A stretch of 24,053 nt of DNA, taken from positions 1 to 24,053 of the forward strand of contig JARLHY010000018.1 of assembly GCA_031292015.1 (NCBI GenBank), in the 5' to 3' direction. This document shows positions 3,187 to 13,838 of the stretch, piece after piece. The notes beneath the pieces were generated by a model. That model was not told the origin of the DNA. It searched no databases and saw only the letters and a list, made by a program, of their open reading frames with translations. A program made the translations under genes and the position numbers. The stretch is from Negativicutes bacterium. Its GTDB lineage: Bacteria > Bacillota_C > Negativicutes > Sporomusales_B > JARLHX01. The stretch's first letter is position 1, and each line of letters begins with the position of its first letter.

Positions 3187-4455
3187 TCAGATGCCCAGGA
3201 AATCCATCAGCGAGCCGATGAAATCGGGCGCCAGGGTGGAGATGAGCAGGAGCGCGGTCAGGATAATCAGGGTGATGGTGAAAACCCAGGTGACGATGCT
3301 GTACCAGCGCGGGTTGACGAAGTTGCCCATGATCGTCCTGTTGTTGGCGATAAGCACCATGAACACCAGAATCGGCGGCAGCAGGACGCCGTTGACCACC
3401 TGGGAAGTCAGCATGATATGGTACAGCGAGGCTCCCGGCAGCAATACCAGGCCCGCTCCCAGCACGATCAGCAGGGTGTACAGTCCGAAGAAAACCGGCG
3501 CTTCCTCCCGGGTTTTGCTGACTCCGTGTTCAAACCCGAAGGCTTCGCAGACGGCGTAGGCGGTGCTCAGCGGCAGGATAAACGCCGCCAGCATCGAGGC
3601 TCCCAACAGGCCGAAGGAAAACAGCATGCTGGCATATTTCCCGGCCAGCGGCGCCAGCGCGACAGCCGCATCCCCGGCGGTGTCGATGGAAATATTGTTG
3701 GCATAAAGGGTAGCCGCGGTGGTCACGATGATAAAGAAGGCGATCAGCCAGGTGAAAAACGCGCCGATCATGACGTCCCAGAAGGTGTAGCGGTAGTCTT
3801 TGGCGGTGATGCCCTTGTCGACCACCGACGCCTGCACATAAAACTGGCCCCAGGGAGTGATGGTGGTACCGATGACCCCGATGGCCATCGTCAGAAACTC
3901 GGCGTCACGGGCGAAGCTCGGGACCACCGACGCCACCAGCACCTGTTCCCAGGGCGGATTGATGATGACACCGGAGATGATATAGCTCACAAAAGTGACG
4001 CACAGTGCCAGAAATACCTTTTCGATCCGGTCGTAGCTGGCCTTGAGCACCAGCCACCAGATCACTACCGCCACAAGCGGCACCGACAGGTATTTGCTGA
4101 CCCCGAAGATCTCGAAGCTGGTGGCGATGCCGGAGAACTCCGAGGCGGTGGTGCCGACATTGGCGATTAGTAAAACAATCATGGCAAAGAACGTCCATTT
4201 TACGCCGAACAGTTCCCGGATCAGATCCGATAAACCGCGGCCGGTGACCGCGCCGGTCCGGGCCGAGATTTCCTGGGCCACAGCCAGGGAAATGCTGGCC
4301 ACCAGCAGGGTGAAGAGCAGCCCGTACCCGTATTTGGCGCCGGCCGCAGCGTAAGTGGCGATTCCGCCGGCGTCGTTGTCGGCGAACGCGGTGACGATTC
4401 CGGGGCCCATGATGGCAAAAAACAGTCCTAAACGGGTCCGAGCGTTTTTCAGCAT
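3187..4455 (-). CDS. Nramp-family divalent metal transporter, probably a Mg2+-type Nramp (NRMT)
   Basis: A 422-residue membrane protein of the Nramp/SLC11 family with about 11 membrane helices. In helix 1 the classical DPGN metal motif is replaced by DNDAGG (residues 26-31). In helix 6 the classical Met-Pro-His is replaced by TITPWGQFY (about 198-206), so the soft-metal-selecting methionine is absent. Such changes are known from Nramp-related magnesium transporters, which carry Mg2+ or Mn2+ and discriminate poorly. The start codon lies 3 nt after the stop of the MgtE-like gene, with a GGGGG-type SD inside that gene's end, so the two are probably translationally coupled. The M-box upstream of the operon independently supports magnesium. 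The alternative is Mn2+ import (MntH), less likely given the motifs. Confidence 0.85.
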   Translation of the reverse strand: MLKNARTRLGLFFAIMGPGIVTAFADNDAGGIATYAAAGAKYGYGLLFTLLVASISLAVAQEISARTGAVTGRGLSDLIRELFGVKWTFFAMIVLLIANVGTTASEFSGIATSFEIFGVSKYLSVPLVAVVIWWLVLKASYDRIEKVFLALCVTFVSYIISGVIINPPWEQVLVASVVPSFARDAEFLTMAIGVIGTTITPWGQFYVQASVVDKGITAKDYRYTFWDVMIGAFFTWLIAFFIIVTTAATLYANNISIDTAGDAAVALAPLAGKYASMLFSFGLLGASMLAAFILPLSTAYAVCEAFGFEHGVSKTREEAPVFFGLYTLLIVLGAGLVLLPGASLYHIMLTSQVVNGVLLPPILVFMVLIANNRTIMGNFVNPRWYSIVTWVFTITLIILTALLLISTLAPDFIGSLMDFLGI

Positions 4456-4458
4456 TTT

Positions 4459-5745
4459 TTAGCGCCCCCTTCCGGCTTTCTTGTTGCCGATGAACAGGGA
4501 GTAGATGTCCATTTTCCGTTCCGGCACCATGACATAGAGAATATCGTCGACAGTCACGATCCCCAGCATGACATTATTCTCGTCAACCACCGGCACGGCC
4601 AGCAGGCTGTACTTCTTGATGATCTCGGTAACTTCGTCGTAATTGTCGAACTCGCCCGCCATCGCCACTTTGGTATGCATGATCTCCCGCAGCAGCGTCT
4701 GCGGCGCGGCGATAATCAGCTCGCGCAGCGAGAGCACGCCTGTCAGGCGCTCCTCGTCGTCAACGACGTACAGGTAGTAGATGGTCTCTGCTTCGGCGGC
4801 TTCTTCCCGCAGTTGGTTGATGGCCTGCTCGACGGTAATGCTGGCCGAGAAAGTCAGGAATTCGGTCGTCATGAGCGCTCCGGCGGTGCCTTCCTCATAT
4901 TGCATGAGTTCGCGGACTTCGTCGGCGTCATCCGCTTCCATCAGCTTCAAGAGGCCTTCGGATTTCTCGGTGGACAGTTCGCCCAGGATGTCGGCGACTT
5001 CGTCCGGCGGCATATCTTCCAGAATATCGGATGCATGATGTTCGTCGATTTGCTCGATGATTTCGACCTGAGTCTCCAGGTCCACCTCGCTCAGTGCGTC
5101 CCCGGCCAGCTCGCTGTCCAGGTTGCGCATGAAATCGACCCGCTCTTTGTAGCCCATTTCTTCCAACAGTTCGGCGATGTCCGCCGGGTGGAGCTCGCTA
5201 AGCTGCTGTTTGCTGCGGCTTAGCTGCAGGGCCGAATTCCAGCTTTCCAGCGGCTTGATGTACTGCCAGCTTAAGAGATTTTCCTTGAGGTTTTTGACCA
5301 AAAACTCCAGGCCGAGACGGCGAAACAGGCCGCGCAGGCCGATGTCCACGGCCGCCAGTACCATCAGCGGACCGCCTTCCTGATGAATGAGGGACAGGGT
5401 GATATCGTTGACCCGCACCATCCTGGTGCCTTTCAGGTCGATGATCTGTTTATCAAGCAGCCACTTGCTGATATAGATAGCGCTTTCTTCCAGCGCAACA
5501 GTCTGATCCCAGGAAAACTGCTGCGCCAGGGTCACGCTGTTTTCGTCAAAGGACTGGATCCGGTCGATAGGAATGAGGCTGTGGACTTTTTTGGCATATT
5601 TTATCCCCACCACCTGGGGGAAAGAGCTTTCCCAGCGGACCGCCATATCCTTGATACGGCCGACCATGCGGCCGCCCGCATCGTAAATGGGCCTGCCAAG
5701 CAGCCGGCTGAAGTAGAACTCGCGGGTCAGAGTCATTTGGGCCAT
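4459..5745 (-). CDS. Soluble MgtE-like sensor: PRC-barrel, MgtE_N and paired CBS domains, no channel
   Basis: A 428-residue cytoplasmic protein. Visible modules: PRC-barrel-like region at about 10-70 (LGRPIYDAGGRMVGRIKDM), a second PRC-like stretch at about 95-165, an acidic MgtE N-terminal superhelix at about 183-285 (SELHPADIAELLEEM, ILEDMPPDEVADIL), and two CBS motifs at about 290-415. In true MgtE channels these cytosolic domains sense Mg2+ and gate a five-helix pore; here the pore is absent and an Nramp transporter gene follows at once. I infer that it regulates that transporter. A TTG at 5751 is also possible, but ATG 5745 has the better spacing (8 nt) from GAGGAGG. The start codon lies in the arm of a 13-bp inverted repeat whose loop contains the SD. 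Confidence 0.85.
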   Translation of the reverse strand: MAQMTLTREFYFSRLLGRPIYDAGGRMVGRIKDMAVRWESSFPQVVGIKYAKKVHSLIPIDRIQSFDENSVTLAQQFSWDQTVALEESAIYISKWLLDKQIIDLKGTRMVRVNDITLSLIHQEGGPLMVLAAVDIGLRGLFRRLGLEFLVKNLKENLLSWQYIKPLESWNSALQLSRSKQQLSELHPADIAELLEEMGYKERVDFMRNLDSELAGDALSEVDLETQVEIIEQIDEHHASDILEDMPPDEVADILGELSTEKSEGLLKLMEADDADEVRELMQYEEGTAGALMTTEFLTFSASITVEQAINQLREEAAEAETIYYLYVVDDEERLTGVLSLRELIIAAPQTLLREIMHTKVAMAGEFDNYDEVTEIIKKYSLLAVPVVDENNVMLGIVTVDDILYVMVPERKMDIYSLFIGNKKAGRGR

Positions 5746-5791
5746 GAGCAATTCCTCCTCTGGTTATTATTGTGCGCCGAATTGCTCATGG
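5742..5791 (-). promoter_or_regulatory. 13-bp inverted repeat enclosing the SD and start codon of the MgtE-like gene
   Basis: Minus strand: left arm CCATGAGCAATTC (5791-5779), 24-nt loop containing GAGGAG, right arm GAATTGCTCATGG (5754-5742) carrying the ATG start. Pairing is perfect. In mRNA this would bury the start codon in a stem. Translation of the upstream 31-codon ORF, which reads through the left arm and stops in the loop, would open it. Confidence 0.6.
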
Positions 5792-5862
5792 AATCCGGGG
5801 AGGTTACAGAACAACCGGCGACCGATGACAGGTATCGACATTATAAGAGGCCCCTCGTCCAT
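5767..5862 (-). CDS. Putative 31-codon leader ORF between the M-box and the MgtE-like gene
   Basis: AAGGTGG (5870-5876) is 7 nt before an ATG at 5862. The ORF runs 31 codons through the left arm of the start-codon hairpin and ends in two consecutive TAA codons in the loop, 21 nt before the MgtE-like ATG and in the same frame. The peptide has no obvious domain (begins MDEGPLIMSIPVIGRR). It may serve only to open the hairpin by translation. Its magnesium connection is inferred from position. It may also be a chance ORF. Confidence 0.4.
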   Translation of the reverse strand: MDEGPLIMSIPVIGRRLFCNLPGFHEQFGAQ

Positions 5863-5993
5863 ATAACCACCACCTTAGCGTAATATAGTATTCTGCCGGA
5901 CCGTGGTCTTGACACTGCCGGCAGCCGGAAGCTGCAAAAAGTTCGTTGCCGCATGACCGCCGCCGATCTTTAGAAAAACTGTCGGCGGGGGGT

Positions 5994-6028
5994 AAAAAAA
6001 GATAGACCTTCAACAGGAAGGTCTATCT
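5994..6028 (-). terminator. Expression-platform terminator of the M-box riboswitch
   Basis: Perfect 12-bp stem AGATAGACCTTC / GAAGGTCTATCT with a 5-nt loop, followed on the minus strand by a run of seven U. It lies directly after the M-box aptamer and about 250 nt before the MgtE-like start, so it acts as the regulated terminator. Confidence 0.85.
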
Positions 6029-6029
6029 T

Positions 6030-6205
6030 GCAGACACGCGGCATTACCTTCCCCACTCGTTGAGTTTTGGCACTGCATAACGTAGAGTCACACTCACCTC
6101 AGCCACCTTAAGTAAAACCTTACTCCGGTAATACCTGTTCTACCCATTGGCGTCTCTCGACGTTTCCGGGCAGTGGCCTGTGTTTATGCAGGAGCCTCAC
6201 CTAAC
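6030..6205 (-). ncRNA. M-box (ykoK) magnesium riboswitch
   Basis: The minus strand starts with the M-box hallmark GTTAGGTGAGGCTCC (6205-6191). It continues with ACTGCCCGGAAACGTCGAGA, the ACCGGAGTAAGG segment and the AAGGTGGCTGAGGTGA region, then a 3' portion with ATGCAGTGCC. Order and spacing match the M-box class, which folds with several Mg2+ ions and favours the downstream terminator when Mg2+ is plentiful. It precedes the MgtE-like/Nramp operon, so transcription should rise when Mg2+ is scarce. The exact 3' aptamer boundary is approximate. Confidence 0.92.
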
Positions 6206-6239
6206 AGAGAAAATGTATTCAGTTTGTTTTCCAAGTAGA

Positions 6240-13558: not shown

Positions 13559-13838
13559 CAACAACATACGTAAATGCGATGACCGTGGAGGAGTAAGCCA
13601 GACGCATTTTCCAGAGAGCCGGGGGTTGGTGCGACCCGGCAGATGCACTGACTGAAATACACCCGTGAGCAGCAGGTCGAACAGCTTTTTTAAGTAGACC
13701 GTGCCGGAGCGCCACCGTTAACACAGGCTAGGGTATCGGACCAGTGTCCCGTACCTGACAGAGCGGCTTGCATAGCAAGCAGGGTGGTACCGCGGGGTAT
13801 AATAATCCCGTCCCTGATTTTCAGGGACGGGATTTTTT
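13559..13838 (+). ncRNA. T-box riboswitch, predicted tyrosine specific
   Basis: Contains a stem I with GGAGTA (E-loop) and the specifier region CTGAAATACACC, a distal GCCGGGGGTTGGTGCGACCC region, and the T-box sequence AGGGTGGTACCGCGG (13781-13795). The codon in the specifier loop reads UAC (13658-13660), tyrosine, followed by a purine. The discriminator-facing site is UGGU, which pairs with tRNAs having A at position 73; this fits tRNA-Tyr and argues against tRNA-Trp. It precedes DAHP synthase and prephenate dehydrogenase. Uncharged tRNA-Tyr should stabilise the antiterminator and allow read-through. Confidence 0.92.
13804..13838 (+). terminator. Regulated terminator of the T-box
   Basis: Perfect 14-bp stem AATCCCGTCCCTGA / TCAGGGACGGGATT with a TTT loop and a T-run. 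The left arm also contains the CCCGTCCC segment that pairs with the T-box in the antiterminator form. Confidence 0.9.

Follow-up and report, generated by a model that had tools for sequence, protein, structure and literature searches.

The DNA analysed here is a stretch of 24,053 nucleotides from a Negativicutes bacterium (assembly GCA_031292015.1, contig JARLHY010000018.1), the whole of which is referred to as the window. On its minus strand lies an Mg2+-responsive M-box riboswitch with an intrinsic terminator, followed by a short open reading frame (ORF) of 31 codons with its own Shine–Dalgarno (SD) sequence and then by two genes for putative Mg2+ transport proteins. A preliminary description of this locus had recorded the M-box, its terminator and the SD-led ORF ahead of the gene, and these observations are confirmed; its interpretation, that translation of the ORF opens a hairpin over the start codon of the next gene, is partly supported. 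It overlooked that the conserved part of the leader is its first codons (M-D-E-G-P in the window) and that a second stem engages the leader's own ribosome-binding site (RBS). We propose that the leader ORF belongs to a widespread class and acts in cis as a second, ribosome-based regulatory layer beneath the M-box. The features of the locus are as follows.

6045..6215, minus strand: M-box (Mg2+) riboswitch aptamer (RF00380, 163.1 bits, E 4.8e-38, full model, cut-off 44)
5994..6029, minus strand: intrinsic terminator, a hairpin of 13 bp (arms 6029-6017 and 6011-5999) with a T run behind it that extends to 5994 (inverted-repeat search)
5870..5876, minus strand: SD sequence of the leader ORF, AAGGTGG (anti-SD duplex -11.4 kcal/mol)
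5767..5862, minus strand: leader ORF, 31 codons, MDEGPLIMSIPVIGRRLFCNLPGFHEQFGAQ, ATG at 5862, stop TAA at 5769-5767
5848..5875, minus strand: arm 1, spanning the RBS of the leader, its start codon and its first codons, in duplex with arm 2
5796..5824, minus strand: arm 2, the partner of arm 1, within the leader ORF
5779..5791, minus strand: 13-bp start-codon hairpin, upstream arm (element 3), crossed by the leader ORF
5742..5754, minus strand: 13-bp hairpin, downstream arm (element 4), holding the gene ATG at 5745-5743
5776..5819, minus strand: alternative stem of GCCGGUUGUUC (5819-5809) and GAGCAAUUCGGC (5787-5776), which cannot coexist with the 13-bp hairpin
5754..5759, minus strand: SD sequence AGGAGG of the PRC-MgtE_N-CBS gene
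4459..5745, minus strand: gene for a PRC + MgtE_N + CBS protein, 428 aa (Pfam)
3187..4455, minus strand: gene for an Nramp-family transporter, 422 aa (Pfam PF01566)

The gene next to the leader had been called MgtE-like, and it does carry MgtE_N together with PRC and CBS domains; it is not a full MgtE, no channel domain of that family being found in the 428-residue protein by Pfam. The Nramp-family gene behind it probably encodes an Nramp-related Mg2+ transporter, to judge by an M-box context like that given in the accessible part of an earlier report (PMC4072509). By reading the sequence, the ACCTTCC of the terminator is complementary to GGAAGGT in the 3' strand of the aptamer, so that the two might pair in a candidate antiterminator. 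The terminator sits between aptamer and leader, so that the window lacks the terminator-less SD/anti-SD platform of the Mycobacterium tuberculosis type. A search for known RNA families between terminator and gene gave three matches, none of them close to its cut-off.

In relatives the ORF is kept, as one of a widespread class of leaders, whereas the arms of the start-codon hairpin are not. Among the named relatives found, Lucifera butyrica stands closest to the window (71%), in keeping with an origin from a Negativicute. Matches to the MgtE_N protein were found in 60 of 380 genomes searched in the window's class, many of them partial, and among the matches listed a recurrent pattern ran from M-box to gene: GGAGGTGG, a few bases, and ATG or GTG followed by GAT TCC GGN CCN, that is, M-D-S-G-P. 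All M-box matches of the class were taken, 75 in 60 of the 380 genomes, representing 67 loci since eight were tandem partners. A first rule, a short SD-led ORF pairing with the 16S tail at -7 kcal/mol or better and having an acidic second codon, found a leader in 53 of these loci; the count becomes 54 of 67, plus the window, with L126, whose ORF runs far into the gene and which was picked by the blind rule described below. Behind these 54 leaders stand genes for PRC-MgtE_N-CBS proteins (22), ABC permeases (17), P-type ATPases (9), Nramp proteins (3), MgtC (2) and CorA (1), the window genes and those of L094, L131, L133, L136, L138, L116, L109 and L129 being checked with Pfam and the remaining genes assigned by sequence likeness. 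Outside the class, leaders also precede genes that are MgtE-like by likeness. Two leaders of the class, MDAGSSGAGP (L029, G143) and MDAGPDS (L032, G099), are kept ahead of PRC-MgtE_N-CBS genes where the strict-filter class search found no M-box, which fits a function independent of the riboswitch. As a control, thiamine pyrophosphate (TPP) riboswitches of the same genomes gave four acidic cases in 30 loci by this first rule; two of them we judge to be thiS, one looks like a transposase gene, and the fourth has a weak TTG start.

The same survey yielded several observations in their own right. Two complete aptamers stand about 250–320 nt apart in L012-L018 (G073, G074, G076-G080) and L104 (G319), apparently, by eye, each with a terminator-like hairpin after it and with the leader behind the second. 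The permease of about 540–560 aa found behind the M-box in 17 class loci (L094-L096, L100, L106, L108, L110, L113, L122, L125-L128, L130-L132, L146) is a candidate ABC-type Mg2+ uptake system; Pfam places two BPD_transp_1 stretches in each of the L094 and L131 proteins, and the other 15 were assigned by likeness. A strong M-box (148 bits) precedes a PseudoU_synth_2 gene in L129 (G307:C1), with no leader ORF. L120 (G092) has two leader-like ORFs, MDSGEGGP right behind the M-box terminator and MDFDTEDR beside the gene, as if the leader had been duplicated.

The starts of class leaders and genes used in the pairing, composition and folding tests were curated by hand. The blind rule was not: it selected, locus by locus, the short ORF whose SD sequence was strongest, at -13 kcal/mol or lower, at least 25 nt past the aptamer and out of the gene's frame. 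Applied to 68 class sequences (the 67 loci and the window), it made 51 picks, 49 of them acidic at codon 2; the two exceptions (L081, L131) begin 4 nt within a leader that has its own M-D start next to them. The hypothesis had been drawn from the window's class, and samples across the phylum served as replication. The first comprised 119 genomes, 44 with an M-box, giving 47 loci outside G001 and 26 picks, of which 23 were acidic (exceptions MKQDSTEVPKP, LNTKSDVPL and MVDEDCY). The second draw, with the rule fixed beforehand, extended this to 299 genomes including the first sample, 104 with an M-box, and contributed 62 new loci after exclusion of two weak M-box matches, G612 (partial) and G564 (below cut-off). 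Here 27 of 33 picks were acidic. As to the exceptions, L242 resembles a CorA gene cut by the contig end, L255 reads M-G-S-G-P and L236 V-G-T-G-S-E, acidic stretches appear a few codons further into L282 and L287, and L265, otherwise unexplained, may be a shifted start; L213, an acidic pick of 105 codons, may not be a leader. In total, codon 2 was acidic in 99 of 110 blind picks, the window not among them, compared with 13 of 167 downstream genes (5/67, 4/41 and 4/59), counts that ignore kinship. Strong-SD short ORFs elsewhere in the TPP and M-box loci were acidic in 2 of 10 and 4 of 21 cases. The blind rule found three ORFs in 28 TPP loci; two were acidic, and both are presumably thiS. No M-box was found in either of the two genomes, from Nitrospirae and Chloroflexi, with distant MgtE_N relatives. 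The class-level searches made around G454 and G469 each yielded three genomes, all sampled before.

The composition of the leaders was analysed in 84 sequences, reduced to 68 by dereplication. Residues 2-6 consist to 38.8% of aspartate or glutamate, 11.2% of proline, 17.1% of glycine and only 1.5% of lysine or arginine, as opposed to 7.2, 4.5, 5.8 and 14.7%, respectively, at residues 8-25. Because codon 2 helped to choose most leaders, codons 3-7 provide the fair test: acidic residues make up 22.1% in frame but 7.1 and 2.4% in the other two frames, and basic residues 3.8% in frame but 10.9 and 22.6% out of frame, while at codons 9-25 acidic residues are nearly alike over the three frames (7.3% in frame, 4.4 and 5.5%). 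The same enrichment is seen at residues 3-7 in the 28 leaders from outside the class (26.4% acidic and 17.9% proline, compared with 7.1 and 3.3% at residues 8-25) and in all 33 picks of the second draw, which are not part of the 84 (18.2 and 18.8%, compared with 8.7 and 2.8%). Codon 2 is GAT, GAC, GAA or GAG in 65 of 68 leaders, its third position holding 0.42 bits and the first two 1.8–1.9 bits; all four glycine codons and all four proline codons are used. Leaders from outside the class include MDDPDADL and MDDPEADL (CorA-like genes), MDADPEPQ (a permease), MDPSPLP, METDPGR, MDTDPDG and MEPESS. The pattern [DE].?[PDE] occurs within residues 2-8 of 45 of the 68 leaders; a strict motif of the intrinsic ribosome destabilisation (IRD) type, an acidic residue with proline, was rejected as too narrow, glycine or serine replacing proline in many class leaders. 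The N-terminal enrichment is specific to the frame, codons 9-25 differ little between frames in this respect, and the pooled ratio of non-synonymous to synonymous differences (pN/pS) is 0.69 over 15 hand-chosen close pairs; selection thus appears to act on the earliest residues to emerge in translation rather than on a folded product.

A second property of the leaders is the pairing of arm 1 with arm 2. Own partners were preferred to swapped ones in all of 20 000 permutations (0/20000) in both the ABC (13 dereplicated) and the ATPase plus MgtC (9) leaders, and again in the phylum samples (0/20000, n=40; own -28.3, swapped -21.5 kcal/mol); in the MgtE_N core, with L091 added and the window and L120 left out, swapping matched the own partners in 19/20000 permutations (n=16). 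A figure pooled over all groups (0/20000) mixes them and is disregarded here. In the phylum samples the downstream regions were also shuffled, because swapping mixes genomes of differing composition: 31 of 45 leaders reached the 5% level, whereas a matched position within the genes did so in 2 of 45. Among the class leaders, 8 of 9 ATPase leaders reached that level. In L179 the pairing spans 25 bases. For 56 leaders (45 from the phylum samples and 11 of the ATPase and MgtC type) the position of the stop codon was compared with arm 2; it lies past the start of arm 2 in 53 and past its end in 41, so that reading of the leader would unzip its own hairpin in most of them. The proposal that arm 2 is a general competitor for the gene RBS was rejected (7611/20000 permutations).

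On comparative grounds, then, many M-box terminators of the Bacillota are followed by a short strong-SD ORF in which selection appears to favour acidic residues, proline and glycine at positions 2-7 and the remainder is little conserved, and in most tested leaders the RBS and first codons pair with a covarying arm, usually inside the leader ORF. The existence of this leader class and of its RBS hairpin is well supported. That the leader ORF acts in cis as a second, ribosome-based regulatory layer beneath the M-box is our preferred explanation, and we would place its probability at about 0.58. Within it, action through the nascent chain is likely, while Mg2+ dependence and the polarity of the effect are inferred. 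At low Mg2+ the M-box would let transcription pass and ribosomes would then initiate on the leader; the acidic nascent N-terminus would cause them to pause or drop off, more strongly at low Mg2+; mgtL is reported to behave in this way, and the same has been proposed of mgtQ (PMC11282234; PMC8092293). Whether a ribosome is held at the leader start or reads through arm 2 would set the RNA shape at the transporter RBS, and hence translation; in the window the 13-bp start-codon hairpin would be the output element, and its competition with another stem would parallel mgtQ. Since the products import Mg2+, we would expect net activation when Mg2+ is low, the polarity being assumed.

A number of results weigh against this explanation. 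In the class, 13 of the 67 loci have no leader: seven Nramp-like and two ATPase genes starting close behind the terminator, L111 and L114, L135, where the leader is degraded, and L129. In L111 and L114 (G300 and G302) the leader start is deleted with M-box, terminator and gene kept, unlike G301 and G303 (the sister L115, and L030), where the leader is intact. No strong-SD pick was made in 21 of 47 and 29 of 62 phylum loci, often as the gene follows at once; the window leader itself went unpicked, its SD sequence (-11.4 kcal/mol) being weaker than the -13 cut-off, and kinship among the picks would lower the weight of their counts. As to the hairpin at the leader RBS, the window's duplex (-27.8 kcal/mol; swapped mean -21.9 to -22.1) was equalled by 22 of 100 shuffles and so does not reach the 5% level, which was reached by just 5 of 17 ABC and 3 of 23 MgtE_N-type leaders of the class, and own partners were not favoured when the MgtE_N set was tested over a wider region with the window among its members (7527/20000, n=18). 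Folding, furthermore, does not support one polarity for the whole leader class. When the leader start is modelled as occupied, the gene RBS becomes cheaper to open in 17/17 ABC loci (mean 13.3 to 7.8 kcal/mol), whereas the cost rises or stays in 9/9 ATPase loci (mean 8.2 to 12.0) and is about unchanged in the MgtE_N group (7.1 to 7.6, lower in 6/23); of the mixed 56 leaders, 13 show an increase and 31 a decrease. Finally, destabilisation by acidic residues depends on context, according to the part of the mgtL study available (PMC11282234).

A serious contender, which we nevertheless consider unlikely, is coupling through RNA alone, in which passage of ribosomes over the leader opens or blocks the gene RBS, the peptide is irrelevant and the start sequence reflects initiation or pairing. 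It would account for the covariation of the leader-RBS stem and for the closeness of leader stop and gene start, the stop of 21 of the 23 MgtE_N-type leaders, the window included, falling no more than 35 nt ahead of the gene start or 4 nt behind it. It is also consistent with the computed folding of the window, where a ribosome at the leader stop raises the mean unpaired probability of the gene RBS from 0.24 to 0.73 and one held at the first codons leaves it at 0.25; the coupling switch claimed in the preliminary description stands to this extent. However, the acidic, proline and glycine enrichment is confined to one reading frame and to the first codons, and codon 2 is almost always GAN, with its third position nearly free. 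Pairing alone would not fix amino acids, because the stem covaries freely.

We consider it improbable that the ORF encodes a small protein acting in trans, for example on the transporter. The frame does stay open, and the pN/pS value points the same way, yet there is little constraint past about residue 8, the same N-terminus stands ahead of unrelated genes, and in 17/17 ABC loci the leader overlaps the next gene out of frame.

More doubtful still is the model of the preliminary description, in which the 13-bp start-codon hairpin, opened by the leader, is itself the conserved second layer. Its anatomy is largely as described: a perfect inverted repeat of 13 bp (5791-5779 and 5754-5742) encloses a loop of 24 nt, the gene ATG lies within the stem, and the loop holds the leader stop and five of the six bases, not the whole, of the SD sequence AGGAGG. 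The 71-nt hairpin has a predicted energy of -22 kcal/mol (z = -3.0, equalled by 1 of 200 shuffles), and this repeat and the terminator are the only two perfect 13-bp pairs in the surrounding 701 bases. When the region is folded alone, the competing stem (-19.2 kcal/mol) comes close to the hairpin (-20.0). Opening by a stop-bound ribosome agrees with the model, and in the ATPase loci (L133, L134, L137-L139, L141, L142, L144, L145) a stem sequestering the gene SD sequence does covary (19/20000 permutations, n=7 dereplicated), in addition to the leader-RBS stem. As a conserved element, however, the hairpin was rejected, having no counterpart in 16 other MgtE_N-type sequences (dereplicated), in which the best upstream pairing of the gene RBS is -6.7 to -10.4, compared with -21.8 in the window; nor was the own partner of the gene RBS preferred in the MgtE_N (2461/20000) or ABC (15641/20000) loci. 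Equally hard to credit is an N-terminus that binds Mg2+ as the sensor, for the D-x-D-G of MDTDGS, MDSDGD, MDADGS, MDPDGS and MDCDGN, which we take to resemble the cation-binding loop of EF-hands, is missing from many leaders (MDSGP, MDDPDAD, MDPSPLP, MDAGGS), and at residues 5-7 the chain is still within the ribosome.

A broader form of the cis-acting explanation would see two Mg2+ sensors in series across the Bacillota, the M-box acting on transcription and the ribosome, destabilised by an acidic leader, on translation; the arrangement would have evolved beside many unrelated transporters, could outlive loss of the M-box and would be the Bacillota counterpart of mgtL and mgtQ. We advance this tentatively, at slightly less than even odds. 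Ribosome destabilisation by acidic nascent chains is, reportedly, the subject of the original IRD study. As an Mg2+ sensor it is described, in the sources as far as they were accessible, for leaders of Escherichia coli and Salmonella; if the broader proposal is true, bacteria would use it far more generally, and behind the textbook M-box a second Mg2+ check would often follow. For testing what in a nascent chain destabilises ribosomes, the leaders offer the acidic motif in dozens of naturally occurring forms with matched RNA stems, and they give a reading of a 5' region otherwise passed over as untranslated.

Elsewhere in the window, on the plus strand, lie a TwoAYGGAY RNA match (2302-2457, 65.9 bits, cut-off 43) and a T-box leader (13570-13818, 119 bits).

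No description of acidic leader peptides behind Bacillota M-boxes was found among the matches listed in open-licence full text, a search that could miss an account in a subscription journal, nor are such leaders mentioned in the portion consulted of a survey of structured RNAs. The claim in the preliminary description that a second control of this kind was new for M-box operons holds in part: upstream ORFs (uORFs) following an M-box have been described in M. tuberculosis (PMC12810186), with no nascent-peptide mechanism given for them. That pe20 M-box is likewise followed by uORFs, one of them with a conserved N-terminus, but works through a translational platform and Rho, with no canonical intrinsic terminator; the available text leaves the role of the uORF peptide open and proposes no ribosome destabilisation. 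NrmT shares with the window an M-box ahead of an Nramp-family gene; in the window, however, the PRC-MgtE_N-CBS gene stands in between, and the part of the NrmT report available mentions no leader ORF (PMC4072509). Closer parallels are found in the enterobacterial leaders, which are summarized here from the accessible portions of their descriptions. In mgtQ of the Salmonella mgtCBRU operon, Asp2 and Glu5 raise MgtB synthesis, and stems 1:2 and 3:4 alternate with a more stable 2:3 stem around the RBS of the next gene (PMC8092293). Like the leaders described here it is a short SD-led ORF with early acidic residues, and the window has a similar three-way choice of stems; mgtQ differs in having 8 codons, in lying in the operon interior under PhoP, where the window's leader has 31 codons under an M-box, and in its favoured stem, the full fold of the window keeping the 13-bp 3:4 stem. 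In mgtL of E. coli mgtA, acidic residues near the N-terminus (the EPDP motif) destabilise or pause ribosomes, whereby low Mg2+ is sensed, and the effect is exerted by Rho-dependent termination (PMC11282234). Here the leaders belong to Bacillota, lie behind the intrinsic terminator of an M-box and pair with their own RBS; like mgtL, they are ORFs ahead of Mg2+ transporters with acidic residues and proline within the first five codons (compare MDPSPLP, MDADPEP and MDDPDAD). The window's own leader is a short SD-led ORF before a putative Mg2+ transporter, with acidic first codons (D2, E3, then G-P), as in IRD leaders. In their residues, their place and their target genes, the leaders are what a mechanism of the mgtL or mgtQ kind would call for.

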